NCBI GenBank assembly: GCA_025345505.1
Contig: JANVCC010000077.1
Coordinates: 517,800-581,799, forward strand
DNA length: 64,000 nucleotides
From: Todiramphus chloris collaris
Lineage: Eukaryota; Chordata; Aves; Coraciiformes; Alcedinidae
Reading direction: 5' to 3'
This document shows, piece by piece, positions 15,224-50,000 of this stretch. Positions within the stretch are counted from its first letter, which is position 1. Each line of letters opens with the position of its first letter. Below the pieces are notes generated by a model. It ran no database searches. It was not told the origin of the DNA and saw only the letters and a program-made list of their open reading frames with translations. The translations under genes and the position numbers were made by a program.

Positions 15224-15229
15224 TTTATT
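15224..15229 (-). promoter_or_regulatory. LCOR: Candidate proximal poly(A) signal for the PALI1 isoform
   Basis: TTTATT on the plus strand is AATAAA on the LCOR sense strand, about 290 nt after the PALI1 stop. About 15-20 nt further along the sense strand is a GU-rich stretch (TCTGTGTGATTTGG), as expected for a working cleavage site. It would give a short 3'UTR of roughly 310 nt (15205-15517). Confidence 0.5.
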
Positions 15230-15517: not shown

Positions 15518-18500
15518 CTATTTTGGGTCCATTCGTGAGCGTTTGCTGTGCGAACAGTCCACTTTTGCCCTCAGCTTCCTCTTGCCCTGTGACCCACCGC
15601 TCTCCTGCATCTTCTTCATGGACCTCGTCAGGGTCTTCCCACTGCTGGACTTCTTGTTGGCCATCTTCTGTGACCGTGTGGAGGACTCTCCCAGGGGCTT
15701 CTGCTTCGGGGACTTGGCCAGCTCCTCGTGGCTGGGGAGCAGCATGGCCCGTCTGCTCGTGTTCTCCTTGCCCTTCCGCATGGGGAGCCGCACCTTCTCC
15801 AGCTGCCTTTTTGGGACTCTCTTCTCTTTCAAAGATATTTTTCTAGCCAGCTTATTGCTTCTCTCGATGGCAGCCTGCTTTCGGGTGGCAGGAGCTTTCA
15901 CACTGACCTCTGAATGCTTTAATTTAATGGCCTTCTTGGCAGGCAGCTTGTCCTTGGTGGAGGAGCTGGACCGCTCCTGCATGCTCCCGCTCTCCTTCAG
16001 CATCCTCTTCTTCCTGCTAAGCTGGAGGTCAGCTTTGGGCGACGGGTCCTCCTGGGACCTGCTCTTTCCCTTCCGCCCCTTCCCAATCCCATCCACTGAT
16101 GGAGATTTAGCAGGAAAGGCATCTGCTTTGATCTGCAAGGCCAGCTTTGGAGACATCAGTGGGTTGATGCACACGCTCTTCCGGCTCTGCTTGCTCTCCA
16201 GGGACAGGTGGTCCCCTGGGCCATCACTCTTCTTCTCCGCCTTCACCATGCGGTGCTGGGCTCGCAGCTTGCCCCGCAAGTTGGAGTACTTGCGTAGGAT
16301 CCTGGTGCTGGCCTGCGTGGGCAAGCTAGGGGCAGGCTGGATGGTTTTGTCTTCACTCAGGTCCTTGGTGCCAGCATCGGCAGGAGACATTTGGATGGAA
16401 GCAGAGGCTTCTTCAGCTTCCATTTTATCCGCATTGTCCCGAATTTTAGCCCAAAGCTTTTGGTTCTTCAGGTTATTCCGAGCTGGGGTAGTGGCAGCAA
16501 ACTTCTTGAGGTGTTTTTTCAAACGTTCGGCTTGCAGTGAGCTAGGGTAGAGACTGGAGGAGGAATATTTCTGCATGGGGACTTTGATGGGGGGGATCTC
16601 CCCTGGGAGACGGGTGTTGAGTTTCTTCACGATCACTAGAGACCTGGTTTCAGTCGTCTCCAGAAACCACTGGCAGATGTCAGACAGCTTAAAGGCCTTC
16701 ATAAACAGCATCTGGACAGGAGAAAGCTTTTGCACTTCCAGCGAGCCTCTACTTTTCCGTGTCCTTTTCTTGCTTTTCCAAATCTCTTTCAGTTTATCAG
16801 CTTTGTTCTTTACCTTGGGGGTTGGCTGCACCTCCTTCTCCAGCTGAATCCAGCCCTTTTGAACTTTCATGTACTGGGCATTGAACTCGGCAATGAGCTC
16901 CTGGTTCTCTTCTTCAGCACACCACTCCATGAACTTTGGTTTGCTGTCAACCACGTCTATGTCCTCCAATGCTGAGGAGTCATCGTTCCCTGAACTGCTT
17001 TCGTCCCTCGGTTTGGGGATCACTTGCACAGACTCCTTCCCTGGTGTGCTCTTTTTTGCAGTATCTACAGGTGCAGGTGTGTGTCTTAAGTTATAAAACT
17101 GCAGGGCAACTTTTTTATGCTTCGCAGCCTTTGCTGGAAGATGCTTGCTTCCACCTCTGCTGCTAGGACATGGAGGTGAAGTGGCCAGTGGCTCGTAGTT
17201 TTTCAGCTTGCTCGTGTCCACGGCACTGTCGGAGCTCTCCTCATCCTTCGTGCTGGCATCATCTGGTTTCACATCCACTTGCTCAGCATCCTTTTCAGGC
17301 AAGCTGCTCTCTGGAGAGAGGAGAATGTTCCTCTTCTCAGAATCAGCCTGGTCACTGATTTCCAGCATCTCATCCAATTGACTTTGGCTGCCATTAGCAG
17401 GGTGGTCATCTTTAGAGGAATTTTCTCCCTCTGCTGCAGTCTCTTTTGCTAAGATGCTTTTGTAGGTTTGTCTGGTAGTGACACCATTCTCCTCACCTGG
17501 CCACTGCTCAGCGATGCTCTCTGGAGCCTGGCCAGTGCCTGGCCCCTCACTGGTACTGAGCAGCATATTGGGGAAGCAGTCGTTTGGGAAGTGCACAGAT
17601 GCTGCCCCATCCAGGTGCACTTCTCTCTTGAGCCGCTTAGCGCCAGGGCTCTTGGAGAGTTTGATCGAAAGGCAAGGAAGCTGAACAGAGCTGGAAGAAC
17701 CAGCATCTTCAGCACTGCCCTCAGCAGGTGACTGGGACAGCTGGCTTCGGAGACGCCGGTCTGATGCCACAAGCACTCTCCTTCCTTTCTTTCGCTTCTT
17801 GTCTAGACCATCTTTGGAAGAGTTAGAGTCTTTCCCTGCAGTGTCTGAGCTGTCTGGTTCAGGTGGCATTTCCCATTCAACGGGCTCTTTTTCACTTGCT
17901 GGGCTGTTATTCTGCACTGCCTCCCCTTCTGAGATTTCGGGGAGGGCTGCGCTGGCCTGCACAGCCTCCTCTTGCGCAAGGGAGGCATCACCCGCCGTGC
18001 CTGATAGTTCAGCTTTTGGTTCAGCATCGACGCTTTTGTTCATACCCACAGACTGCACTGTGGCAGGGGGCTCTGGGGGGCTCTCCCCATCCATGGTGGC
18101 AGGGATCTCACTGGGAGGCTGCCAGCCTGGAGAGTGTGAAGAGGGCTCCACCAGACAAAGCCCACAGGGCTCTGTGTCCCCTGTGCCTGGAAGCTGGGCA
18201 GGATCCTCGGCACCATCATGGGCCGGGGGTGCTATGTCCACATCAGCAGAGGGCTGCAAGGAGGACTTTGGCTCTGGGATGCCAGAGAGGTCTGGATCAG
18301 TTTGTGCATCACAGCCAGAACAACTTTCCTCCCCACCGGGTGCTTCTGAGATAGGAAGGGCAGGAAGATCAGCAGCCTGCCTAAGGCCACTGCTGTCCCC
18401 AGAGGAGCCCAGGCTGCTGTCAGCCTCGCAGGGGACACTGCCTCCCACTCTGGTCCCATCTCCTTCTGCGGGAGGAGAGCTGGGGCGTGGGGAACTGGGA

Positions 18501-20036
18501 GGTGGCGAGTCTGCTGAGCTGTCCTCTTTCTGGGGGCTGGGTGGAGCAGAGAGGGAGAAGAAGGGCACAGCCATGGTGGCTTCCCTCGACCGCAGCGCCC
18601 GGGTTTCCCGGGGCTGTACAGAGCCCAGCTCAGCTCTCTCTCTCATTTCTCGGCTGGTTGGTGCCCCCTTAGCCAGCAGCCTCAGGGAAACCCTTTTCTC
18701 ACCTTCCCGTCCGGCCTCTGCAGACCCCCCCACTGAGAGCACCAGGGGTGGCTTAGTGCTTATGAGGGTCTCTGTTCGCAGTGCCGGGCTGCTCCCTCTC
18801 TCCTCTGCCCGGGAGCTCTTGACCAGCGTGCGGACAGTCGGGAGCTCGCAGCACTCCCCGTTGAAGTAATAACCCCGCGTGCTCTTCCTCGCGGTCTTGC
18901 GGGACGACACTGACCGCTGGCTCTCGAAATGGCACTCGGTGATGGGCTGGCTGATGTAGACCACGTCGCACTGGTTGTCATAGTCGTTGATCCTCAGCCC
19001 TGACGCCTTCTTGCTCTTCCGAGTGGATCTGAGGGAGGCTGCCTTGGCACGGGGGTGCCCGCTGGGGGCCCGGTGGGCGGCTGGCGCAGCGCTGGCAGGC
19101 AGCCAGCCCTCTTTGGACTTGTCAAGCGGGCCCTTGTCAGCTGGGTGCAGCTGGCAGCCTGCCTTGCCCTTGGCCATGGCGTGCAGGTGGTTTTCTTGCT
19201 TTGGTCTCACATCTTGTTCTTTTGCATCTAAGTCCTGGTGCAAAGATGCTTTTGAGCTGCATTGCAAAGTGTTCTCTTTGTCAGCTCTGCGAGGGGGGGT
19301 CACAGCAAAGCCAGGATCCCAGGACTCTTCCGGCAGAGCTCTGAAAGAGCTCTTCTGGGACCCCAGACAGCTGTCTAAGCTGTCCTCGCTGCCGTTCACA
19401 TTCGCCACTTTGACCGAGATATAACCTTCCACAAGAGTCTTACCTGCTAGCTGGTCTTTATTGTCCTCACACTTTCTGACACTGGCTTCCTGCTCGTGGC
19501 CAGTGGCTTGCTGCCCTTCCAGGCTCTTTGCGGCATGATGGAAATTCAAAGAGGAAGAGTTCAACATGCTGAGGTATCCTTGGGTGAGGCTATCCTTTGG
19601 ACTAGCAGAACGAAGCCTGGTGATCGGGAGCTCTGAGAAGTCCCTTCTCAAAGCAGGACTGGAGCTCTCTGCTCTGTCCAGAGACTTCAGCTCCACTGGC
19701 TGCTTCGGGGCTTGTCCTGTAACAGGCAGGGGGCCATCGGACCCCAACTGGCCTGGGTCCAAGGAAGAAGGGGACTTTGATTCGGTACAAGTAGCACCCC
19801 TATCCTGACTTTCAGTGCTTCGCTGGCTACAACCAGAGCCACAAGTAGAGGCCTCCATGCTCTCGGATTCAGACAACTGCTGGCCTTCAGAGTCTGGTTG
19901 TACTTCAGTGTATATGTCGTTTAACACACGAATGAACTGCTTCTGGTGATGTGTACACAGTCTGACCATAAACTTTTCCAGTGGAGACTTCGGCTGATTG
20001 TTAGAGTCTATTGCTATTGTCTCTGCTGCATCCTCA
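15518..20036 (-). CDS. LCOR: PALI1-specific last exon of LCOR (C10orf12-type), 1505 codons
   Basis: A single uninterrupted exon starting after a CTCTCTAG acceptor with T, which completes a Gly codon, then EDAAETIAIDSNNQPKSPLE, ending at TAG (15518-15520). The fourteen residues of open frame upstream of the acceptor are intronic. Conserved parts are an N-terminal LCTHHQKQFIRVLNDIYTEV segment, a DNQCDVVYISQPITECHF segment (exon residue about 347), a basic KKRKKGRR motif (17777-17800), the KFMEWCAEEENQELIAEFNA block (about 1036), an ASTRILRKYSNLRGKLRAQ block (about 1241) and a Lys/Arg-rich tail. The middle is Ser/Pro/Glu-rich and probably disordered. In mammals this exon makes PALI1 a PRC2.1 subunit that promotes EZH2 methylation. 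The exon is fully intact here. Confidence 0.95.
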
Positions 20037-23000
20037 CTAGAGAGACAAAGAGAGAAGCAATCAGTAACATGTACCAAGGAATAAGAGTTTATGCTGCAAA
20101 ACTGGAATAACCCTTCTCCTCCCCCACAGGCATAACACTTGCTTGACCCCCAGGTCAGATCAAGTATCCTGTTGTCCCAGGGCTGGCAGGTCTCCCTTCA
20201 GTCCCCAGTAGCACACTTAAGTATGCGTACTGCTGGCAGGACACGGACTGCACTTTTGTTTGTCTCCTGCTGCCAGAGCATCCACAATTACACTGTGCCT
20301 AGGACATCCTGGTGTGTAGGCACCAAGCAAACCTAAATTTCCCAGTAAGAATCAGATTTAGCATCTACACAGTGCCCAATGTAGATGGCCCAGCTCTTCT
20401 GGGACCCACCAGGATGACTGCACACCTCTGCACACTCGATCTGCACAGCCAGAGTGGGTGAGAGCAGAGCAGCATCCCTTCTGGGCAGCCCCATGACAGA
20501 AATCTCCAACTACTCTAGGCCCTCAAATTCTGCTTACACCTCAGTGTCAGAAGATGGGTCTAGGGCAAACTGAGCAGAACTGAGCCTCCTCTGTAACCAG
20601 TGCAGAAATTTTGGTGAGCTCTCAGCCCGCAGGACGTGCAGGCAGCAATTCACGTGTGTGCAGTGCTTTGCCATTTGCACTGACCTTTGATTTACTGCCA
20701 TTTGATAAAGCAGCTCTGCAGCTGATAGTCGCTCAGAAAGGTGTGCTTCGGCAGCACAGGATCCCTGCCACTAGCTAGCTCTCAAACCAAGGTGATTATC
20801 ATTTACCTGCTTGGCAAAGGCAATTAATTAGGAGTTATTGTGGAAAAGTTAAGAGATGATTGCCCAGTGTTTGCATGAACTCATGTGTGTGCCATGCCAA
20901 GTGCTGTTATCGAGACCATCTCTGTTCCCAACAGCAGTGCAGGCGACTCCCACCCAGCCCTCGCCACACCAAGGCGGCTGCGCGCCTTGGCACCCACTCT
21001 GCCCGGCACAGGATCCTTGCCAGCAATGTTGGGTTGCTTTGCAGTAACAGTTGCACTTTGCACCTCCTGGCCTTGTACCAACGGAGTGAAAGTCGTTTCC
21101 CTCCCTACAGCCTTGCTCTCCCCTCCCAGCACTGGATGCCAACCTCTCTTGCTTGACTGGGTCAAGGGGGGCAACTCTTATCACAGGGTTTGGGGCCAGG
21201 GTGGGGAAAAGCAGCTTTATCTGAAGTGGATTCTCCCTCCCCATGCCGTCAGGTGCAGGGCTCAACAGGTGGACAAGGGGGAAGAGCCCCTGGTTTGGAA
21301 GCCATCAGCACAGAGAGGGAGGAGGGAAAGCCAGGGGCTGGACCAGCTGTGCTCGGTGCAGCCAGCGTGCCAGAGCTGGCCCTGGGCAGCCCTCACTTGC
21401 TGCTTACATGCTGCTTTCTGCCTGCTTGCTTTGAGCTGAGAAGTGCCAGGGAGGCACCTTCAGCAACCTGCTTCCCCCTGGAGCATGGGGTCTGCTCCCA
21501 AACTCAGCAAAGGGCAAGTAAAGGTGCCCAGGGGCCACTCTGGGCTCTGAGCTGACCAGGTCACACTCCGTCTCCTGTTAGCCCAGAAATGCCAGGCTGC
21601 AGCCAAGCCTGCCCCGAGCATCTGCTAGCCAGCCCTTTGCTTTCCAGTTTGCCCAAATTTTGAAGTGTAATGAGGCTTTGCCTCTCAATCACAGCCGCTC
21701 AGTTTCTTGAGGCAGGACTGTCCCAAAACCGCCCAGAAAGGCTGAGCGAGCTCAGCTCGCCGAACGGCTCCGGCACCTCCAGAACATGCTCCCGGGGTTC
21801 CCCACGAACAACGTACCTCAGGACTGCTTTACTACACCCGGGCAAGAAAAATGCCCTCCAGCAACCGTCTCAACTGGTTCTACCTGGCGCTGCGGTGGCT
21901 TTCAATTCGGAATGCCTGGGATTAGTTTAAATAAAAATGCTCAGGTAGCACCTGGCCGGTCTCCAGAGCCCTGCTTGGGAAGGGTTGTGTCAGCCAGGAT
22001 CTCTTACACAGCCCAGCTCCTCCCCTTGTCCTGCTGAATAACAAAGGGGATAAAAAAACCTTTCACCTCCCTGAAAGAAGAGGGCTTGGAGCAGGGGCCT
22101 TTGTGAGGAGGCAGAGCTCAGCACAACTCTTTTTCGAAGAGGGCGGTTGCTCTGCCCTCACCTGCTGGGCAGCCCAGCTCCTAAGAATGGCATCCATCTC
22201 CCCTCAGCCCGCCTGCCTTTATAAGGTGGCAGCAGAGGTGTGGCCCTGCCCGGCCCACGCTGCTGCCACGCTCCCGGCAGCCTTGCAAAGCCGTTAGGGC
22301 GGCAAAACAACCAACACCCGCCTTGCCAGGGCACCCTTGGGTGCTACACACAGGCAGCGGCGAAGGAAGAGCCCCTGGCGTAGGGGAAGCTGCTGGCTGG
22401 GTGGGTGGCGAGGAAGGGAAGGTGAGGCACGGGCAGGGCAATGCCTGCAAGGGCATTGTGGGTCTGTGTACGGTACGGGGTCCCTGCTGGGGAGAGGGGA
22501 CCAAAGCGGCTGGGCACAGTCTTTCCTCGCCTTGCTGTAGTGACGCTAAACGCAGCTGGGCACAGGTCACGCCTGCTTTGCACCCATGTGCGGGGCTGAA
22601 GAGACCCGTGTCCTGCTCCTATGGCGGAGGAGACCTCTGCTCCCTCGTCCTAAAGCCTCCGGGATGGTATTTCTGCCTTGCCTTCAATTAGTTCCTTCCT
22701 CTGAAGTGTCACTGAGGCCATGGTGCTCATTTTCACCTTATTGCCCCACTGTACTCCAGCGAGTCAATTTGAGATATGCACGGCATGTCAAGCTGTAAAT
22801 TTAAGAAACAGAGATAAATACTGCTCCTGCTTGATAAGAGAAATAAACCCATTCAGCCTCAGTGCTCTTTGTCCCTAGAAGACCCATCTCATGCTCAGTG
22901 ACACGGTTCACCTGCTATTGCGGGTGTGTTGCGTTCAGGGTCCTCTGCTTCCACCTCACTTCTGCTCAAAGACAGGCTGCAACTTCTCACCTTGAGCTCA

Positions 23001-26000
23001 TCTGCTTCTTCCCCAGCCCACCCCTGTCTGGACCCTGCAGACAGTGCCCCCTTTTTCTCAGTTTCAAAGGATAAGCTTGAGGCAGAGCACTCCCTGCCAC
23101 CTGAGCACACCCGGATCCCACCTTGGTCCTTCCAATCCCCGTACTCCTGGCGTGCTGAGCCACACAGCCTGTGCCTCTCCATCCCCTGCTAACCCAGACA
23201 TAGCTCTGTGCTCCCTGGGACTCAGGAATCCATGCATTTTGGTAGCTGCCCAGCACTTCGCACCATTCCTATCTGTTCTATCTCTCGCTACTAAATAAAA
23301 CACGCCCGTGGCCATTCTCTTGCCCAGCCAAAGGATGCAGGTTTGCCTACACCCTCTCTACTTAAGGCAGTTTTGGAGAAGAGCTTGTTTCACGTTCAGA
23401 TGCAACAGAAGAGTTTATTTCAAGTGTCCCACAGCTTCAGGCAGGGTTGCTTACGGACTCTGTAAACTGTTGCAGAGAAACTATTTACGTGACTTACTGG
23501 AGAGAAGACGAGAGGAGAGCTGATTGCAGATCTGAAGCAGTGCCTTCCTATGGAAGGCGCCAGCTACTAACAGGTTACTCAGCCCTGCTGGCAAAGGCAC
23601 AGTGGGAGCTGAAGACTGACCGGTGAACACAGAGGCTGGGAGTTAGGAACATGGTTTTGAACAGAAGGAAAAATTGTTCCTGGGAGGCAGCCACCCCAGT
23701 CTCTGAAAAGCCTGCCTTTCGGGAGGCACAGGCCAGCCCAGCAGAAGCTGCTGGGCTCAGTAAAGTGAGGGAGCCCAGGGCAGCCCGTACCATTTGCAGG
23801 CTCTCCCCAGTGCCCATGCTCAACCCTCTCCACACGGCTTGGCCTGAAGCTCTTTTTTGAGTGTGCAAGAGGAATGTGTCGTCTCTCTCAAGGGGAGAAA
23901 CCACAAGCGTACTGCAGCTCCACGGCCAGGGAAACGTGACGTACTGGGGACCCTCTATGCCTACAGCCAAGCTGCAAGTGCAGGCACAAACTCATATGGG
24001 GTAACTAGGAGTCACTGCAATGGGAGACACAATCTACCTGCCAGTGAGCCTTCCTGCAGAGACGAGGAGATGGCAGGTCTGCCCTTTCTGGCCACCAGCC
24101 TTGAAAGCTGCCTATGCAAGGCTGCAGCTTCTGGGGGCTCCCCTGCTCCTGCGCCCCAATGCCTCGCTGCACATCTCACCCCAAGCCAGCAGAAGACACT
24201 CCAACGTCCCAAGTAAACCCTATCACCTGAGCCCCTCGCTATCTCCTGGCCCTTCTAGCTTTCCCAGGGCAGCCCTGTTCTCTCCTCCTTCTCTGCCTGC
24301 CGCAGAAGGTGTCAGAGGCATCAAGGGGCAGGAGCTGTCAGAGACACAAACTGAGCTGTTGCTACGCAACCCTGGTGGTGCAGCAATTAACGCTGGGGAA
24401 AACGTGCTGTGCTCTAAAGCTATTTGCATAGCTGCATGCTGCAATACATTTGTTTGCACTGTGCCTCCAGTGTTTAGTGGAGTTTGAAGTCAATCCTCCT
24501 CAGCTCTTGCTGGGTGGGGACCTGGGGCTTCCAACAAAGGCCACATGGTTTGGGATGATGGAGCTGGGGTTTGTCCTGTCCGTAACACCTATAGACTGCA
24601 CAGTTATAGGATTTACAGTACAGGGGGGAAAGGCTAAGTTATCCGGATTTCATCCTCTGCAGCCCAAGGAGCTTTTCCCACCTTGCTGAGGCAGCTCCTG
24701 CCATGCCCCTGACCTACTGGTGGGGTTGTCTTAATTCCCCTTGTCCAGGTGCACCAGGGTGACTGCACTTGTTCTGCTCATGAATGCCAGAACAGCTTTA
24801 CAGGCAGCCCAACCTGCCTGTAATTCAAGAGTATAGTTTGGGGGGGAGAAAGGGGGAGAAGGAAGAGAGGAAGAAAGAAATCAACTGGTTCATACCAACC
24901 TACCTGGGATGCTGGTCTCCGAAAACCTGCCGATTGCCAACTGCAATCTTCTGGTTTGCCCACCCCAAGTGTCTCACTATTGAACATGGAGCCTGTGCCC
25001 TTTTTGGGTTTCTTTTTTTAGCCCTTGAACATTGGTTTGACTGATTATAAGTTTACAGGTATGTTTTGTACCTCAGAGGCACAAGAAGCAGCAGCAGAAC
25101 AAAAAGTTCAAGGCTAAGTGTTTCTGTTCCTTTCAGACCACTCTAACCACCAGGATTATGTTCTGTAAAAGAAACAAAACATAGCTATAAACTTATAAAA
25201 TCCAATTCAGTATTTGTAGGGGGATGACCTCTCCCCTCCCTCTCCTGCTGACACAGCTGACTGTGTGCCAGTTAGTGAAACGCTGCCTTGCACCCCCCAA
25301 AACCAGAGGTACCACTGGAGTACCCCACAAAGTTGAGGGGTGCCTTAGAAATCTGTCTAAAAGCAGAGATTTGAGAAACGTGGATGACTAAGAAGAAAGC
25401 CTAAGTTGCGAGCAATGCTCTCCATCATCTGAACTCAAAGCACTGACCATGTCCCCTCTGACCCCAAGGCTGGAGGCAGCGTGTCTCACTGCCCTAGGGT
25501 GGCACCTCCGGCCCTGCTGGCTTCAGCCACTTCATTCATTTTTCAGGGTAAGTGGAAATATCATTCTGAGGGACTGCAAAGGAGCAGAAGGCTCTTAAAG
25601 GGAGCTCTCCCACCAGAGGCAGTCAGGTGAGTGACCCCAGCCCCAGGGGCATTGTGAATCCTGCATGCTGAATGTGCATTTGAAAGCGGCTGTGGCTGGA
25701 GGCTGCCAAAGATGGGCTCTCCTTCCCCAGTGCCGGGAGGCCTTGCTGCAGAGCCACACAAGGCTCTCGCACTGCAGGAAGAGAAAACGAGTTCTCTGCC
25801 AGCCGTGGTTCAGCTTGCTGGAGTAGCCCTGCGAAAGCAAATGCCAGTGGGGAAAGGCAGGAAGTGGCACTGTGTCTTTCGGTGGCAGCCCACCCCACTG
25901 TCACCACGGTGGGTGGGGAGCCGTGGCTGCTGCCAGCTCTGTGCCAGAAATCATCATCCCAGGGCAGCAAAAGGCAACCCTCGTGTCATCTTCCTTGCTC

Positions 26001-29000
26001 CACCTGACACACAGTATTGTGTTCAAACCCATCTTCGCCCACAGCTGCTGCAAAGGCCTCGTGTTTCGAGAGGTGGAGGTGAGGGGACATCTTTCCTTCT
26101 GCTGGCACTACTCTGGGGCTTGAGATCCCTTGCAGGGGGTGGGCAAAACAGCCATGGGCATGAATAGCGTAAGCCACTGCTGCCAGATTTGCTGGAGCTC
26201 ATCTCTCAAAGCCCCAGTTAAAGGCTGACACTGGGTGTACCAGTTTAAATGCCTGCATTTCAATCCTCAGAAATATGCCTGGCGCCTAACACTCCCCACA
26301 CAGATGAATGAGTCCCTTCACACCTCTGTGGGTGCTATAGTAATTCTCTCTCACTGCACTGACAAAAAAAAAAAAAATAGAAAAGCAGCACAGAGAGAGC
26401 TGAGGCTCCACACACAGCTAGGAAGCATTTTTCTTCTCTAAATTAAAAGCTGAAGTTGTGCAAAGCCAGCCAAAATAACTATGGAAATACTGCCGCTGGG
26501 TTCTCAAGGCCCTGAATTTACGCCGTCCTTGGTGACGCGTGTGGGGATGGACTGAGCTTGCCTTGCAACTGAAAAGCAGGAAGAAACAAGTTATAGATGG
26601 GGTTTGTTTGGTTGGGATTTTTGTCAGCTGCATGTATTCGTCAAGGTATTCAGGTTGTACAATAAGCCAACTGACTGGATAAACAGACATCTATTACAGA
26701 TGCAGGCTTTTAACCCTTCAGAGTAGTGTTGTTTATGTATTTTTAAAGTAGTTAAACATTAGAAATCACCTTCTCCCCACCTGTAGCCAAATAAAAATCA
26801 AACAAATCAAAGTTGGTTTTACCTTAAAAAAAACCCCAACACAATAGAAACCTCAAATAAATGTCTTTTTTATATTCCTGTCATAACTTCCTCCACTCCC
26901 ACCTTCCCCCAGTAACTAAGTCAACCATATTCCACAGTAGTTTATCATCACTTGTGATACTTCTAATACAATATTTAATGACTAATTAAAATTTTTACCA
27001 CTGAGCTATTGCTTTAAAACCAAGGGAAATTTATCACGTTGGAAACATTATTCTACACACTAGCTTTCACAGCCTTTCTAGAATTGTCCTTGCTAACTTT
27101 TCTAATTATCAAGGACATCTGGGATCTTCCCTTTAAAGAAAAAAAAAATTGCCAAGAGTGTTTGTCTCCGAGGCAGTACTCTGCATCTTCCCTGGGCTAG
27201 GTGCTCCAAAAGAATAGATAGCACCAGAAGACCAGAATAGAAAAACAGATAACACCAGAAGACAGATAACAAAAGCATACACGGGGGTGGGGGGGAGTTC
27301 TTACAATGATTTTCACAGCTTTGCACGTTTTAAAAAAAGCAGCACCCAGTTAAGGCAAGGGAGAACGAAGCACAGGGACCAGTCCTATGGAGCAGGGAGG
27401 GATGCCCCGAGTTAGCTTTAATAGTCCTGGGCACGAATTGGGAACACTCGGTGGCTCTGGACCTGAGGTGAGGCGGGTGTGTGGTCCCTTGCCCACTCCC
27501 GAGCCCATTGCTGTCGGCTCCTTGACCATCCTGCAGTAAACTGGGGACAGGGCTGCCTCTCCTCAGCCCTGGGGCACGCATACACAGGTCAGCTGGAGCC
27601 TCTGTGTCCTCAGAGGTTCAACAACAGGTAAACCCTCCACCAAAGCTGCACTCATCTGCATCAAAATGAGGCTTGCAAGCAGGATCTGCTGCGCTGAGAT
27701 CATAGAATGGTTTGGGTTGGAAGGGATCATCTATTTCCAACCCTCTTGCCATGGGCAGGGACACCTTCCACTAGACCAGGTTGCTCAAAGCCCCATCCAA
27801 CCTGGCCTAGAACACTTCCAGGGATAAAATCCCACCTTCCTCTCCTACGCTGCCCCTAATACTGCAGGGTGGAAGAAAACCCAAATGTATGGGATGCCCT
27901 CCCCACAGACATTGCTGGTCCCAGCTCCACAAGCCCATTACCATGCAGAGCCACTGTCTGCTGCTAGAAGTCTTCAAGGATTTTAAAGTCTGCAAACATC
28001 CAGGATATTCCCCCCCCCAACATGAATATGAAAAACCATCTGCAGCAGATAGGTAGAGCTCTCACTAGAGCTAAACACACTCAGCACAGCCTGGTCGCCA
28101 AAGCTTGGGAGGGGCCAGTGGAAGACATCTGGAGAGCAGAGGGTATCTTGGGTGTAATTAACAGATGTTGGGGGATATGACCCCATTTCAGATAACCTGG
28201 AGATGCAGATAATTGGGCCTCAGATAATCAAGGTCACGCTGTTAATAGAAACAGTATCCCAACTCCTAACGGCAGCGTTCCCACGTGCCGATGCTACACC
28301 CCCTTGCACACAAATGCCTAGTGAAAGATGAATTAGCGGTTTGATACGTGTCCGTATTCTCTGCCAGACTGAGCAGCCAGCCCTGTTTCTGATGCACCAC
28401 TTTAGCTGGCTGCTTGGGAAATAGGTTAAGGCAGAGAGGTGGATTGCAGCCCCGGATGCCTGGGGACGAGGCTGTCTCAGAGCTGACACGCTAGGTAAGC
28501 TCTATTTTGAAAGTGGGTTAATTTAACTGCCATTCATCTACCATTAAATGATGTAGGTTAATTTTATAGTCAGATAACTATTAAGAAACCAAAACATAAG
28601 GCAGGAAATGTCTCTCTGCCTGCAAGTAGGTAGAGGTTTCCTCTGCACTAATGCACACCCCTGCTCTTCAGCTCAAACCTCTCATCCTTCCATTTCTGCA
28701 CATCCCTCACATCATCTCTGGTTTTTTTAAACCCTTGCCATTACACACTATTGTCCTTCCTCCCCCTCTTAAGGGATTCTATTCTCCTCTCAAAAATTCA
28801 CTTCAGTATCCTGGCCCACAATTATTTTTCTCCTTCATTTACATTGCCACAAATCTCAGTGCTAAAGGAAGACAAACAAATAAACCTTGTCTGACAATGG
28901 CGAACGTCCACTAAAAAAGATCCCATCTCCTCCATGCATCCAATATTTGTCCAGCTACGTGGCAAGCAGAGGCAGGGAACTACATCTTGCTTGTCATGTA

Positions 29001-38000: not shown

Positions 38001-41000
38001 ATTTGCTACATCCATCAGAACTGCATATAACTAGCAGTGCAGATTTTCAGGTTTCTTACGCTTCTAATTACTGACTTTGAGATAAATTTGAGATCAAGTG
38101 GAAACCTTTATAGTACCAAAACCAGTCTCAAACCTATCGGGTTTTGGTACAGCTTTTTAAACTACTGTTATTTAACATTGTCTACTGGTGCCAAGAAAAA
38201 GCACTGAAAAAAAAAAAAGACTGAAATTACATTTAATTTCCAAAACTTTTGTCAGGAATACCTAGAAGTTTCTGATCCTCATGAAAATGAGGGAAACAGC
38301 TCTTCCTGTTCTACCTTTAACATTTGGCAGAGAAATTAAACTGCTTAAAATACTGCGACAAAGCTTTCATACAGGTTAATAATTTTGCCTTCATAAGAGT
38401 TTGGACTACAACAGGTGTATAATTTTTTTTTTTACACCGAAGAGTTAAAATTTTGTCTTCACTGAAGGAAGAGCTCTTTACTTTGCAGATGTAACCACAC
38501 TGTTTTTGAGAAACAAGGAAACAGCACGATGCTCCCTTCACTCCTTGGACACTGTGTTCTCCTAAGACTCAAGGACATCTTAAGAACATTACTTCAAAGT
38601 AAAATGGAAAAAAACCCACATGGTAATTCCAGTTTTGCCTGTATAACAATGGCTGCAGATGATGTAAAAAGCAATTCAATCAGAATTAAAAAACTGTTCC
38701 CATCTATATGAAGCTTACTCAGCCCTAAAGCCCCTGAATCACTTTGCCAGCTCCTGTGAATTTCCAGAGGAAAGCATTGTACTCTCAGGTTCTCATGAAA
38801 AAAATATTTGGACTCAAATGTCAGCCTGCCACAAGACAAAGCACAGGCTATTCCTCCTCTGCTCTTAACCAGTCTAAACACATGTGCAGTTACCTCCTGC
38901 TAGAAAGCCCCTCCAAAAAGGTGGTACAGGAGTTGTGTGAGAACGCAGAAGTGGAGTGTGTTCCCTTTCTAGAGTCACTACCCTGCCCGCACACCTGCAC
39001 CACTAAAAGTCGTTTGTTTTGCAATTGCCATGAGAATTCAGACTTCAGCTTCAGGTCTCTAGCAATAGGGTTGGGTAATACAAGCATCAAATCATGAATT
39101 CCTGCAACAAGAAGAAAGTAAAGGCATACCTGTACTGCTTATGCAGCAACTTCTCCTGTGCATCAGGGCTGGGGGTGTGTGTGGGTGTGTGAGAGATATT
39201 CTAAGGGAAACTGTCTTGAGACTTAAAAAAGAAAACCACAAAAAACCCCAAACCAAACCGAAAAAAATAAAATAAAAATTGGGGAACGACTGGCAAATAA
39301 AACATCTTTTGACAGAAATAAAACGAGTCCAGAAGCATGTCCCTAACAATATCTAACTGGAAACATTCAACTCTATAGCTGTACTCAAGCATTACGGCCA
39401 CAATAATGCCTACAACACTGTGGAATGAGGATCCAGCTGGCTGAAAGTGAGGTAATAGTTTGTAATAGGTCAGAGTTCTAAAAATGCACTTTTACATCTT
39501 ACAAGTCCAAATTAAAAAAAAGGACACATTTCATACATGTTGGGCTTTCTCACCAGAACTGTACGATAATTAACTCCACACCAGGACCCCTACCACACTA
39601 AGCCTTACTCATCTTCAATTATATGCTGCAGCAAAGATTTACCAAGCGACACCTAAACTTCAGTACAATATGAAACTTGATTCTTAAAACTTTATACACA
39701 CAAAATATAAAATTACTTTTCTAGGATGGGGTAGGGGAGAGGGATTCTCCTTCATGATACTTGGACTGAAAAACTAGTTTTCAGAGACTGCCACAAATAT
39801 TATTCACAGTTTCTTGCTGTCAGGCTTTGTCAGCTACATCAACGTAGTACACAACAATACTGTTAAGTCCAATAACTACATCGGATGGACGTTCTCGGGA
39901 ATAAGAGCAAACTAGTGACGAAAAATACCCGAAAGGCCTCCTCCTAACGACGTCTCGATTTCTACAGGGCTGTCTGTCACACGTTAATGCGATCTCAATA
40001 GAGCAGCAGGAGAAAGATTTTAAACCTTCTCTCCCATCCAAGTGATCCAAGTAACATAAGCATCCACTTACCAGAAATAACATGAGGAACAAGGCTCTTG
40101 TTACAAAGACAGCAGTGAACCACACCTTCCCACACCAAAATATGGTCAACCAGGGATTTTGGCCATGCAAACTGCTGGTCAGCAGAAAATTAAGCATGCT
40201 AATGGACAAACATTAATTCCAATCATATATTTAAAATGATCCCAAATACTACTAGTTAGCTACACTGAAAGCGCCTGTAAAGAATACGTAGTGGAAACTG
40301 AAAGGAAACATTAGTGATCACTGCAGCACTCAGAGTGATACTAGTCTTACGTGATGAATCACTTCAGAGAAAATACATTAGATGGGACTTCCAAACAAAA
40401 AGGTAACATTAAAAGGTGCACCTGAATATTACAGACTAAATTTACAAAACCTACAATAAGGTAAAATATATATCTTTTGAATATTCAGCAGCTTTTTTTT
40501 AAATTTGTTTTTATTTTTTGAGAGGCTCATGAAATTTTAAAAAGGGACCACTAACTAATCTCAACCATGCTTCACAAAACAATAATGGCTATTTCATATT
40601 GCAGTTACCAACGTAATGCAATTAGTGCTTAAAAAATAATCTACACTTTTTTTCTTTTTTTTCCTTTTTAAGCAGAGACCTTTGGAGGAAATACGGTTGT
40701 TCAAAAGCTTCTTGAAAAAGAAAGATTACCTGAATATTAAGTTATCACAGATCAAGTGTTGTGTTTAAAAGCTTTGTAGACATGACTATTACAATCTTCA
40801 GGTCTCAGGACATTTAAACTGAGAAAGTTACGCGTTTGGTTTGTTGTTGGTTGCTTTGTTGTTTGTTTTTTTTTAAATCCACCTTCTAACCAAAGCAAAT
40901 AAAGAGTACTCAACTTCTCACTATCTATTTACAATTCTTAGCCTACAGTCTGAAATGACAAGACAAATTCTCTTTTAAAACTGCAGCATTAAAGGGTAGG

Positions 41001-44000
41001 CACACCATTCTTCTGCTGCACGATTGTCACCCACTTAAACATACACATACAAAATAGTTAGGTTAGTAAAATGAGCACTCCACATACACTATAGTGACAA
41101 GTTTTTTAAAACTCAACTCGTGTTGCTTAAATAAAGACAACTGCAAAAGGTTAAACCTCTCTGAACAGTAAAACTGTGTTGCTTTTTTTTTTCCTTTTTC
41201 TTTTTTTTTTAAACTTGCAGCAAACTTTCTACCATAACCTCCAACAGCAGATGAAACCACACGTTTAACTGCACCGTTATTGCAATCACCAGCTAAACTG
41301 GAACATATTGCAGAGTTTATATACTGCTACTGAGCTTAAACTGCTTTAAATGCCAAGACGACAACTAGAGAGCTATGAGGAACCAGGATTTTGAGTACTA
41401 AAATATATTAAGTAAACAAAACCAAAGTATATTGGGGCCAAATGCCCAGTCTGTTTCAAGAATGAGCAGTGCATATTTCAAACAACAGCAATGGTGTGCC
41501 TAACCTTTGAAAATAGGAAGTTGCTGGGGAGGGGGAGAGGCTGATGGAATCAACTGTTCCAGGAGTCATTCAGCACCCCTAGGGCTGTCTAGGCCACCCT
41601 CCCATGAACTTTGAGAAACCACTTTCAGTCACTGACATCACTTAATGCTCTCACACAAAAACTCCAATGCTTCTTTTGGTTGTGCAAATGGGGAGAAAAA
41701 AAAAAAAGAACAGAACAAAACAGGTTATTCTATCTACCTTTTGCACAGATTAAGACCAAATTGTTTCTACCTGAAGAACCAGCAGTTCCCATTTGGTCAT
41801 ACTGTGGTTAAGTCCAGTAAGCTCCACCTAATTACTGATCACTCCCGCGGAAAGTATCAAAGATAAAAGTTCTGTACAAAACTTATCCTGGATCTCCATA
41901 TAATGATAACAACACCATCATATTGAAAACCCCCTGGATTTGTGGGTTACGGAGTGCTTTTACGGTGTTTAAATGCTTATTCTAGCATGTGCTAAACCAC
42001 TATCAAAATAGATTAAATAAAAACAACAACAAAAAAGCAGGACTTAGATAAATTCCTGCTACTGGCAACTGTAATATTTAAAAAGGAAACACCCATTCAT
42101 TGAGTGTTCGACCCTGACAGTATTACAGATAGATATGATGCAGAGCCTGATTTAGACCAGGCTACCAGTGTTTTACTTCTTCCCTGAACATTAACAAGCT
42201 CCTTCACTAATGTGGATATTTGGGCAGACTACTGAGGTTGTAACGTTTGAGATCACCATTTTCTGGGCTTTTTTTTTTTTTTTTCTTTTTTTCTTTTTTT
42301 TTTTGCAATATCACAGTAGTTTGTTACACAAATCCCCCTTCCCCAGATTAGAGTCATTTAAACTAGTTGTTGGAACCACATAGTTTCGTAAACTCAGAAT
42401 CAAGTCTGTAAAAAGCATAAAGGTCACAAAGAACCACAGTTCTGTTATAATGAGGCATACCCTAATACATCATTTAGTGTACCCTGACTGCTCCTGACTG
42501 TGAGAAGCTTGTCTTCCGTGAGATAAGGCTACATCCTCAAGCAGGTGAGTCTAAATATCACCCTTCAAAAATATCAAACTAAATTACAGCGAAGGTAGTG
42601 TTACAAATAATTAACTGACATAATCTGAAGGTAGTGTATGTAAGTTTTCCCTCCCCTCCCCGCCGGGTGAGCACTAAGCAGACAGTGAATGGAAAGCATG
42701 TTTAATTTAGAAAGTAAATAGTGGAGAGCCTAATTAGACCCAATTGATTATCCATCTGATAAATCTCTTAAGTTCAAGAACGGCACCATTCCTAAATAAG
42801 TTGATTTAGCTTAAATCTTTCAATCAACTGGATCAAAGAAAAGGACGGGGAAAAAGATTTCTGAAACAGTTTGAAGAATGACAGTCTGATTCTCATTTGA
42901 AAAATGCCTGGGTTGACGAGAGTATCAGTTTAAAAAAGTGGACTTATTTCTATAAAGGCAGACAAGAAAAATCCAACACCAGAAGTTCAGGCAGGCTCTA
43001 CAGGCAAGAAGTCCACTTCCACAGATCTGCATTCTTTGTGAGGTAACTCAACTCTCTATTACAGAGAAACATGCAAAAGGCAAAAGAAAAACAAAAAAAA
43101 AAAAAGGAGGATAGGGGGGTGGGTGCTGGGGGTAGTGGGCAGGAGGAGGGACACTGTGCCATACCAGGCTAGAAAACATTTACAAATGTGACATTCAGAG
43201 CACACCTTTCCCCTGTGTTCACACAACTCTACACTAAACTGCAAAGGAAAGAGCATTGCAGTAAATAGGAGAATCAGGTGCGCTCAGTGGTGGTTGAACT
43301 ATGCAGTAGTGCTCACCCAGTTTGCAAAGTAATTGGCACTCTACAACATCCCTACTCATCTTTCAATTCATTTGCACTTTGTGCTGCTTCTCCCTGGGGA
43401 TCTAATTCAATCTTTACTGAAACATCCTGCCCCTCCGACCTCATTAATTTCATTTTTTTCTTTGGAGGGTTTTTCAAAGTGCCCAGCCTCTCTTTAACTT
43501 TGTACTCCAGTGTACTGTGGGGGATCCCATAAATACTCTGAGCTTTGGAAACACTCATTTTCCCGCTCATAACCACAGAGATTGCTTCCTCCAGTATCTC
43601 GCTGTTGTACTGTCTGTATCTCCCTCTTTTCTTCCTAGGTTGCTTGGAGCCAGGATCTCCCTCTTGATCTGAGGTGGGATATGGCTGTCCAGAGGTAGAC
43701 TGCTCAGCATCTGAGCCCCAGGAATCTGGTCCAGCATCCAGCAAACTTCTCCTGTTTTGTTTTGGAAGGATAGCCCTTAACTTTTTGCTAAGCGCGCTCT
43801 CCGTTTGTGAACCCATTACCAAAGAGCTATAGCTGTACTGGTCACCAGTGCGGGACTCCCATGAAAGGTCCATGCCTCGAACTTGTGGTATCTTTAAATC
43901 CACAGGAGATGAATGGCTCACGTCCTTTTTCCCATCCTGTTTACTTTGAAGTGCCATTTTTTGAAAGGCAGAGTTTTCTGTAAGAAAAGGAAGGTCACTG

Positions 44001-47000
44001 ATGTTGCTGAGTGCACCATTTCCCCTGAATTTCATGCGGCTGAAATTGAATTCGTAGTGTGGTTTTGCCCAAGAAGCCTCCCTGGATAATATTAAGTGCT
44101 GTCCATGATTCTGTAGTCCAGATGGCCCATGGCTGGCAGCCGTAGAAAACTGGTTTCTGCTCAGCAGTTCTTCACTAATCTGGAGTGATCGAGCCAGCGG
44201 TACTTTAAGAGATGTGGAGTGGCCATAACCTTCCCTGGTTCCATCCTGCAAGCTTCTTGGAGGTACCCCATCACCACTCTGTAGTCCCTCCGGATGGTGC
44301 TGGCTGGGTCTCCCAGGTCGCCTAATTGGATGGAAGGAAACTGATGTGAGCAGGACTTGCACAGGTAGGGAGGGATGGGTGAGGGGGCCACTCCTTTATT
44401 AGAAGGCCTTGCTTGGGTAACATCACTTTTTGTGTTATTTATTTTTCTCTAAATTTGTATAATTTTTTTATTACTTAATTATTTATTTTTTAAGTCTCAG
44501 CATCAGTCAGTTTTAAAACTTGTTCATAAAAAAAGAGAAGCTTTTTGGGCAAAGAAAAATGAAACCTGTTGGCTGGTCTCTGGTTGGGTTCACAAATTCT
44601 CGGAGTAGAAAAGACTTCGCGCAAGCGTCTGAAAATAGCACCTTAATTACAAAGTAGTAATCAATCTCCATAGATCTACACACAACTGTGTTACTGGTGT
44701 GACGTTACCACTAAACAAGTACAGTAATAAAAGAGTAAGCCAAAGTGCAATATATTCAACATGCAAATATGAGTGCCACCTGCAGTATCTACAAATAGGT
44801 GGAAACCTTGGATGGTGTTTGCTTACATCATATTGAAAAATTACTGCTCAGGATTAAAAAGAAATAAATAAAAGGCCTCAAAGGTATTTGCTCAACTTTC
44901 ATTAAGCACCAAATATGAAAGCTGGGATACTCCAGATCACAAAGAAAAACAATGCATGACACTAGACTTACCAAATTGCTCTCTTAACTAATTGTGTATA
45001 TATATACACAAGTATATATATACACACACACACACACGTATATACACATGTCCCTGCTTCTCATTTGATACACAGCGTGGCTAGGAAAGGCAGAAGATCC
45101 TAGCTCCAACTGTCACCCAGGTCAAGAGTTAATAGTGGAGAAAACGGCATGTATTTTTACCCTTTCCCTTTCAGCACAAGTGTTCTATGACACAAAGCAT
45201 TACTACTGCAGACAAGCACATGTATTTTAATGTTTTACTTGCTTAGCCCTCTGTAGTAATTAAATCACACTAGTTTCAAAATCCACCTCCAAACTTTTCA
45301 ATGTTCAACATAAAAATTACCAAAGAGACTAGTAAGCAATTCTATTTCAATGCTCTGGGACACTACACTGGTGTAGAAAGCCCTCTAGCTGAGTCGGCGT
45401 TATCTGAGGATAGGATGCGTAATACTGAAAAGCTACATTATTAACATGACATTGGGATAAAAGGAAAAAAAGCTTTTAAAGAGAAGACATCCACTGAAAG
45501 GACCTGTCAGGTAACACACACATGCATGCTGCTAGCTTCTCTCCAGGATGCAACAGGTCATAGTTGAAGTGGGCAACAAAAGTCAACAGGGATTCGGAAG
45601 AAAATCCAGAGAAATGAATGGAAGTTTGCTATTGCAGAGAGCACTCTCAAGCAATGTGTATCCTCTGCCCCTTCTACAGCAATTATCAGCACCAGAATGC
45701 ACAGCACTGATTCTACGCCTAAATAAAGGTCATACTGGCAGCTAATTGGGACAGAGGGTCATGATTTCATTGATGCTAAACAGACTGCAGTCCCCTTCAG
45801 GTACCACACACCTGCACAAGTGACCACAGGTGACAGCGAGCAGCATCCTCTCTGGACCCACGGAACTGATCAGGACAGCAGCACACGCTGCTCCTGTCAT
45901 CCCTGCGTGCCAGACTTTGGCCCTCACTTGATAGGTAAACAAGGGAACAAACAACACAACCTCAGTGGCTTCTGCTGCCTTCCTAGGAAAGTAGAACTGG
46001 AAATAACCTGTTCAGAACTGAAAGAGAAGAGCTGCTGGGGAAGGTTTATGCTAAAGAATTGCAAAAAAAGTATTAAGACTAACTTTTAAACTAGGATTGA
46101 AGTATTTTATTACTAGAAACATTAAATGGAAAAAGTAATCTTTAAGGGAGAAATCTGAGACAGTAATATTTTTCCAACGAGAAGTGCCGAAGTTAAATCA
46201 GCTGTTAGCAGTACATGGGATTGATGGTGGTGGTGGGTTGTTAGTTTAAAATTTCAAGGTTTTCAAAGACTATTGCAAAGCTAAACTCAGCAATTAAATT
46301 GCAGTCTAAACCACATACTGTTTCTACAATTCACTAAAAAAAAAAAAATTCCTTGTACACAGTGTGTTTGATAAAACTCTCCCATCAACACCCAAAATTC
46401 CTCTTACCCCCAGTCAGCCTCTCCAACACTCAATCCTAACTAACAGTAAAGGGTTTCTAAAAGCATCAAAAGTGACCATTAGAAATATGAAACCTGAAAG
46501 AAATTTTTTATATAACATTTTCACACCTTCAACTACTTAAGGTAAAAGTAGTACACCACATAATTTAAAGGGAAAAAAAAGGTAAAAACCAAAAATCCCC
46601 AAACAAACAAGGACAATAAGGGAAAAAAACCCCAAACAAACAAACCCAAAGCAAAAATTGTTCGGTGCTACAGTACAACCACAAATCCAGAAAGACGTAT
46701 TTAAAGTTTTCTAAACTACCAGACTGCCTAACCTGTCTACTTTTAAGTTGGCATTTATGGTGGGAAATATGAACAAAGAGCATGCAGTGATTCAAATCTA
46801 CTTCAGCTTGGTTCACCACTCAAGTAAAACTCACCCTAAAGTAAACTTTCCTACTAGCTAACTTTCCCCCGGGTGAAGTGAAATCTAAGTTAAACTGAAC
46901 TTGTATCTCCACAGACATCACTTATCACAAAACCCAAGAATCAGGTAATGGAAGGATCTTTGGCCAAGTACTAAATGGCCCAAAATAACATATATTGGAG

Positions 47001-50000
47001 TTTTTAACTGCAAGTTAAGCTGTCTCAGTTTGCAACAACTCTTATTTGGCAGGTGGGGTGAAGGCATTTGCCAAAACTATGAGCTGAAAAACACATTACT
47101 CCAAAGGGTTAACACCAAAAGTAAGTTAAAATTAACAGACTGTAAGCACACATTCTTAGCAAAAAAACAAAACAAAACCAAAAGTGTTTTAGAAGGTCAT
47201 AGTAAGTTGCTTTCTCTTACCCATTTCCCGGAGTACTGGAGCACCCTGGAGAATGACTCAGAGAGGTGCTGCCGGCACAAGGACTCTTCTTTGTGGATAA
47301 ATCAAGCACACCGTCTGGAGAGACAAAAGAAAGACTTCAGTTTTTGAAGCAGGATCAGCCACGTTGTCCCTTGACAAAACAAGACTTCTGAACATTTTCC
47401 ATTTTATTTTTATTTTTTATTTAAATAAATTGAGACTTGTATTTATTTGCAGTTTGACTTCAACATAGTCCTCAGAAGTCACAAAGAAAACTGGCAAAAA
47501 TAAAAGCGCATCTGTTACAAGAGCCAGAGAATAAAAGACGACCTACAGATGACAGTTTAGGGTGTAACACACCCCATTGCATAACTAACCCTCAGCAGTC
47601 CCAAAAATGAGACAAACTTAAAATTCCTGAGATATCCCCCCCCCTTAAAGGGGGGGGGGTTTAAAGCAGTATTTGAATTGGGGTTTTTCTTTTTAATCCA
47701 AACCTCTATAGGAAAAGTCATTGAGTACTTCATACTGGAAATTCACTCTGAACTGAACTCACACACACAACTCCTCCTCCTCACCTGGCAGCTAGCTTCA
47801 GCCCTTTTTCCACACCTCCACTGGGTCCCTACTGGCAAAGCTGCTGCCTTCCCTTCTCTATTGTTTACTCCCCCTCTTCTTCCATGTACCAAATTGTTTT
47901 CCCTGCTAGACTGCTTCATCCATCCTCACTAATGGACCTCCCTTACACTCACCCATGGTCCTCTGCAAGCCCTTACGTAAACTCTGCATTTCCAGGCAAC
48001 GGAAAAGGGAGCGCTTTTTGCTAGAAAAGCCTTGCTCCCACTGCACTGAAACAACTTGCAATTCTGGTCATTTTAACGAGGGCAACATTGACACAGAAGC
48101 ATTGCAGCCATATGAAATTCCTGGAAACTTTGAAACAAAGAATTTATGAGGCAAAGATAAATGAAACATGTTGGCAAGGTAAACCAGAGGCATTTCAGAA
48201 CTCCTCGCTCATTCCATCTAACCAAGTAAATACAACCCAACACAAGAACAATGCAAGATAGATTTCAGATGGCTTAAAGTTCTCATTTGACATATGGAGA
48301 AAACACGCAATAAACAGTGAACTAGAATTAACTTACAGAAAGCTGTTCCACCCACTGCATTTGGGAACATACCATACCCCAAACTTAAGCAAGCAGAGAA
48401 TTCAATCTTCCTTTTGAACAACACTGATGAAGCCACAAGCTACAGAGACTGGATCAAGTAGCACCTCCTTTACAAGAAGCTATACTAAACAGCATGAGCT
48501 GCTGCCAGAGGCACTTGCATCCATGATTCCTTCATCAGAAGGAATTTTGTGATTAGATTGTGACCTAGATAGATAGATTGTGACCTAGCAATCTCTGAGG
48601 GCAAACAGGGCCAGCCTCATACCCCACAGAGAAGTTTCCAGCTAGCTGGGTTCCCCTCAACCCACCAGAACAGAAATACAGCAAGAAGCACCACCGTAAG
48701 TCTTTTGCAAGTCTCTCGAGTCTCTCAATCAGAAGTTTGGCAAAACCTCTCCCCAATTTACACTTAATGTAATTGGGAAAAACAAAACAAAAAGCATCAG
48801 CAAACAGATTACTGTAAGTTAATATGCACATGTTCTAATTCCATAACAAGTGCTATGAACGTTATACATTATCTTACAGCCTTTTTGTCACATTGCAGCT
48901 AAAGAAGTTTGTGTACCTGCTTTCTTCTTCATCATCCAATCCTCTAATTAAAAAAACCAAACAACAACCAACCCACAAAACCCAAACAAAAAAAAGCCAA
49001 AAGCAAACCTGATTCTCTCCCTCTCAGTGAAAGTCTTCACAATGAGAACACTAACATAATACAAAAGATACTTGTGAAATACATTTCTAATAAAATCAGC
49101 TAGAAACAAATGCTACCAGCCAAAAGTACAGGTTCACACTTTGAGACAGACACCATCCAACCTCCCATTGCAGCTTGGTAACTCAAGTGTGGCACCAATT
49201 TTCAGCAAGTGCTCCGCGTGCAGTAACTTTCCAGACGCTCAAGCTGCATATTGTTGGACACACAAAGTGAACCTTTTTACAAAAGGCTTCATAAGCCCAA
49301 GTTCAAAGTATAAAGGGATACCTACCATTCTGTATTAGCTAGCAAAAGCCTTTTCTTCTTTTTTTAAAGCACCTTTTCCACTTGAGAATGGACAGCTTAC
49401 TTTGGTAGAATTATTTCAGACACTGACACTACTCTGAAGAAGGGTAAAGGGGTTAATTTTAACCCTATCAGTAGGATAGGCTTATGATGACCTCCAGTCA
49501 AGTTTCAGGAAAAAACCCCAAACATTCACATGTTGTAATCACTCACACAATTTGCTTGTTAAAAATGTTTTTGATGGAAAGCAAGGTTTGCAAATTGAAA
49601 CAAGCTCTGCAACACTGTTACAAAGTATTCAATCTGGGCTCCAGGGAACAAATCTATTTTTAAGGTAGAAGAGAGGTGTTTCTTTCAAGTGCATAAACCT
49701 GCAAGTTTTGTACAGTTCATGGGTATCCATTTTACAGTCTTCACAAAGCAATCTCTCGCAGACTTTTAGAAGATACTGTTAGCACACTATGACCAGAAAG
49801 AAAATAAACTACTCCTTCAGTCAGACCGGGTACTAACCTTCAGAAAGGAGGCAACATGATGGTTTTCATGACCATGTAAAAACCTTGCTTTATCATCAGT
49901 AACTTGTCTTGTCAGACAGCATACAGTCCATTTTGGCAGACTGTTTCTCGCAGCTTGTCCCCAGAGTTTGGAGCATCCCCATCCCCTTTGCCCTTTTTCA

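Follow-up and report, generated by a model that had tools for sequence, protein, structure and literature searches.

PALI1, which also goes by the names LCOR isoform 3, LCOR-CRA_b and C10ORF12, reportedly has its founding paper in Conway et al., 2018. According to a review (PMC8864842), it derives from a splice isoform in which a single exon is exceptionally large. The human protein has 1557 aa, and a C10orf12 cDNA clone was the source of residues 311-1557. It binds PRC2, whose methyltransferase it stimulates and by which it is methylated at K1214, K1219 and K1241; the residues at -1 are Q1218 and K1240, the residue at +1 of K1241 is F1242, and an aromatic residue stands at +1 of K1219 (PMC8319299). 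According to the same paper, the K1241 site is needed for full PRC2 stimulation, and full conservation across the vertebrates that it covers extends to K1241 and F1242, without K1214 or K1219. The initial annotation of the locus analysed here had taken this structure to be established for mammals; the structure is indeed known, but not in mammals only, PALI1 being described as vertebrate-specific, with Gallus gallus in the species list of a JARID2/PALI1 alignment legend (PMC8319299, Zhang et al. 2021).

The 64,000-nucleotide stretch of Todiramphus chloris collaris DNA that was analysed (the window) almost certainly carries the vertebrate LCOR gene with both of its alternative last exons, LCOR and PALI1, intact, as judged from sequence homology. 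All the exon coordinates were confirmed on the minus strand, by direct reading and by script, and comprise: an upstream shared coding exon (50198..50485), with its ATG at 50435 and a phase 1 end followed by GTAGGA; a last shared exon of 94 nt (47221..47314); the classical LCOR last coding exon (43352..44321; 322 codons plus stop); and the PALI1 last coding exon (15518..20036; 1505 codons plus stop). An in-silico join that includes the upstream exon gives a classical LCOR of 433 aa and a PALI1 of 1616 aa, which have their first 111 residues in common; the PALI1 join (47221/20036) is in frame and yields 111 + 1505 aa. Exon 47314-47221 is preceded by TCTCTCCAG and ends in AAATGG (read AAT GG), with the donor GTAAGA next, so that the frame is left two bases into a codon. 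This agrees with the initial annotation, according to which the exon ends in phase 2 and both acceptors, 44321 and 20036, continue the frame. The accompanying argument, that a single base completes a glycine codon at each acceptor, is true to the letter (G at 44321, T at 20036) and uninformative: with GG as the last two bases of the shared exon, the codon reads Gly whichever base follows. The phase match, for its part, is informative only at about 1 in 3 per acceptor.

The 111 shared residues contain LSKLL (50279-50265), which we take to be an LXXLL nuclear-receptor box, together with PLDLTVR (50246-50226) and, in the last shared exon, VLDLSTK (47309-47289), both of which we take to be CtBP-type motifs. 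For PALI1, an LXXLL motif and an interaction with CtBP are stated in a review (PMC8864842). The Pfam scan gave no match in the last shared exon (47312-47223) and one chance-like match to YceG in the upstream one (50483-50199; E 0.06, 13.2 bits where the cut-off is 32.4). Both shared exons stay below the Pfam cut-offs, so the putative identity of this part rests on the short motifs named above. The 5' edge of the upstream shared exon presumably lies at 50485, after TTTACAG. On the minus strand the frame is open for 16 codons 5' of the ATG, up to this acceptor (50485-50436; DPNIPLVAREI before MQRM), so a longer N-terminus, contributed by further-upstream 5' exons, is possible. To look for additional N-terminal exons of LCOR or LCORL, the part of the window above 42 kb was scanned with 18 short motifs; the only minus-strand match was DPNIP, inside the known exon, and one plus-strand CNLQ was put down to chance. 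Any additional coding 5' exons of LCOR may lie outside the window, or may have been missed by the motif scan.

At the classical ending, acceptor 44321 (CCAATTAG then G) leads into a 322-codon frame that closes with a TAG stop at 43354-43352. This 970-nt exon encodes a Psq-type helix-turn-helix (PF05225; 43472..43600, minus strand; Pfam E=1.9e-15), and its alignment with the PDB chain 2COB_A, named 'LCoR protein', shows identity at 63 of the 65 aligned residues (E=1.6e-34), with both mismatches confined to the first two aligned residues, at its N-terminal edge. The product has the composition of classical LCOR: N-terminal LXXLL and CtBP-type motifs and a C-terminal Psq HTH.

At the PALI1 ending, acceptor 20036 (GTCTCTCTAG then T) leads into a 1505-codon frame with a TAG stop at 15520-15518. 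The window has 41 stop-to-stop frames of 150 aa or more, and this one is the longest of them (1559 aa from stop to stop, the next having 421). When the 31.7-kb stretch 47220-15518 was simulated 200 times with a first-order Markov model, stop-free runs reached 223 codons at most (the longest runs averaged 150), and an estimate from base composition puts the chance of a 1505-codon frame at ~9e-27; its length is far beyond chance. Within exon 20036-15518 the other two forward frames contain 80 and 46 stops, and the three reverse frames 34, 17 and 55. The third-codon-position GC along the exon ranges from 0.52 to 0.79 (ten full 150-codon bins), with peaks in codons 301-450 and 1351-1500.

The large exon had been annotated as fully open and as retaining its conserved block, and both points were borne out: all 1505 codons are open, and a DUF4553 block (PF15090; 15527..16957, minus strand), within which the conservation of the exon was assessed, matches positions 2-478 of the 479 in the Pfam profile over 477 residues (E=2e-211). 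A methyl-lysine segment (16499..16585, minus strand) contains K1262, K1267 and K1289-F1290, the counterparts of human K1214, K1219 and K1241-F1242, with spacings of 5 and 22 that are identical to the human ones; the neighbouring residues are Q1266, Y1268, K1288 and F1290. The counterpart of the human PRC2-interacting region (human 1058-1250) falls at 16475..17053 on the minus strand when a constant offset of +48, taken from K1241, is applied, and these limits are approximate, chiefly at the N end. The large exon therefore has the residues of PALI1, namely the methyl-lysine pattern and a C-terminal DUF4553 with the putative PRC2-interacting region. Because the three lysines and their neighbours match the human pattern and spacing, the site needed for full PRC2 stimulation is kept in the predicted product (K1289-F1290). 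By analogy with the human and mouse work, PRC2 would methylate K1289-F1290, and EED would read this mark and stimulate PRC2. A search of PDB sequences with this exon gave no match at E 1; 6V3X and 6V3Y, the EED-PALI1 peptide entries (PMC8319299), probably fall below the 20-residue limit. In one scan of genome contigs, meant to pick up stray vertebrate sequences related to the large exon, 8 pattern matches came up, of which tblastn confirmed 0. That the two C-termini belong to named families, as the initial annotation held, is correct (Psq HTH and 2COB 'LCoR protein' for one, DUF4553 and the PALI1 methyl-lysine pattern for the other), and the putative assignment of the endings to LCOR and to PALI1 is supported.

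The splice sites were scored with a crude weight matrix, over all the GTs and AGs between 50485 and 15518, and the resulting ranks are approximate: 70th of 2100 GTs for donor 47221, 44th of 2750 AGs for acceptor 20036 and 161st of 2750 for acceptor 44321. The sites are good without being exceptional, and the proximal acceptor (44321) looks weaker than the distal one (20036). Because by this matrix the splice sites are ordinary, the case for LCOR/PALI1 rests on protein homology, with no reliance on splice-site strength. Candidate poly(A) signals are present after both endings: the nearest after the classical stop is an ATTAAA 0.65 kb downstream (42701..42706, minus strand), and an AATAAA (15224..15229, minus strand) lies 289 nt past the PALI1 stop, with a GT-rich stretch after it. 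Such hexamers are common by chance (7 AATAAA and 7 ATTAAA between 43352 and 20036; 2 AATAAA, at 15229 and 8468, and 6 ATTAAA past 15518 down to 4300); the sequence context was inspected at 8 candidate sites.

In the mechanism that we propose, donor 47221 would be spliced to 44321 and the RNA cleaved and polyadenylated further downstream, and the product would be classical LCOR, with its NR box, its pair of CtBP-type motifs and its Psq HTH; alternatively, the HTH exon would be skipped by a 27.2-kb splice from 47221 to 20036, and the product would be PALI1, composed of the 111 shared residues and a long PRC2-binding C-terminus. Each product stops within its own exon, so the two C-termini would be mutually exclusive at the protein level. 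Since acceptor 44321 looks the weaker of the two, we conjecture that the outcome probably depends on how well recognition of the HTH exon, together with its polyadenylation, competes with a splice that is 24.3 kb longer. It is also conceivable, and in our opinion unlikely, that in this lineage the stronger distal acceptor makes PALI1 the default and classical LCOR the regulated form, intronic polyadenylation at the HTH exon being the control point. From homology we infer that the junctions 47221-44321 and 47221-20036 are used in this animal, and that the word 'switch', chosen in the initial annotation, may apply to it. The contrast drawn there between a DNA-binding corepressor and a Polycomb subunit is valid for the added tails, which are different, but too sharp for the whole products, since the NR box and the two CtBP-type motifs are present in each; because these corepressor motifs are common, the two forms would differ in the part that is added, a DNA-binding HTH or a PRC2-binding tail.

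The large exon could also be read in two other ways. It might be a separate downstream gene, as in the old reading of C10orf12, translated from an internal ATG of its own and matching LCOR in phase only fortuitously. Human LCOR and C10orf12 were in fact once separate gene models, although they have been resolved into one locus in GENCODE (PMC6886504); in the present exon the first in-frame ATGs are at codons 23, 60 and 157, any of which could serve such a gene, and a phase match alone would occur by chance about 1 time in 3. However, an acceptor that ranks 44th of 2750 AGs sits where the phase fits, and the frame is open for the 53 codons directly upstream of acceptor 20036 with zero in-frame ATGs among them, both of which argue against an independent gene; we regard this reading as very improbable.

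Alternatively, both last exons might be present in one mRNA, the HTH exon being spliced from its 3'UTR into 20036, in which case the large exon would itself be 3'UTR and PALI1 would never be made from that transcript. The region between 43352 and 20036 has no donor scoring above 8, but the real donors, at 3.0 and 4.2, lie below that threshold too, which makes the result uninformative. A 1505-codon frame with a nearly full-length DUF4553 would, however, be unexpected in untranslated sequence, and an mRNA of this kind seems to us scarcely credible. The preferred reading is a single LCOR gene whose shared exons are joined to one or the other of two coding last exons.

Elsewhere in the window, the 3' part of a convergent gene is present on the plus strand (2281-4353), with a laminin G domain above the cut-off (PF02210, E=3.4e-23) and EGF-like matches below the Pfam cut-offs. 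From the LCOR-SLIT1 neighbourhood in human, this gene is presumably SLIT1. The last stretch of it that was scanned (3808-4350) gave no Pfam match at E 0.1, and Rfam gave no match in the whole window at gathering thresholds.

The predicted long product resembles human and mouse PALI1: its N-terminus is also that of LCOR, its last exon is a single, very large one, and a DUF4553 and the K1214/K1219/K1241-F1242 pattern are present. It is longer than the human protein (1616 aa compared to 1557 aa, net +59), 48 of these residues preceding the K1241 site if the same start is assumed; and whereas K1241 and F1242 are the only ones of these residues fully conserved across the vertebrates considered in PMC8319299, it has all three lysines. 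The comparison with classical LCOR (Psq HTH; PDB 2COB) is limited to the HTH, in which there is no notable difference. The same gene layout recurs in the paralogue LCORL, whose long isoform, PALI2, binds PRC2 and has a K-F site at K1558 (PMC8319299); PALI2 is described with three AT hooks (PMC8864842), and in dogs, goats and cattle its loss-of-function variants have been linked to body size or growth (PMC11121065). Unlike PALI2, the window locus has an HTH that matches a chain named 'LCoR protein', and LSKLL is present; LCORL is set apart by description. In a literature search on LCOR, C10orf12, alternative last exons and chicken or Gallus, no title among the matches listed was on both junctions in a bird. 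The two-ended LCOR/PALI1 layout is already known in vertebrates and the window holds one more orthologue of it: publications already cover the arrangement, its range among vertebrates and the way in which the PALI1 tail works, and to these the window adds one more sequence, a clean and intact example of one N-terminus offered to two repressive machineries.
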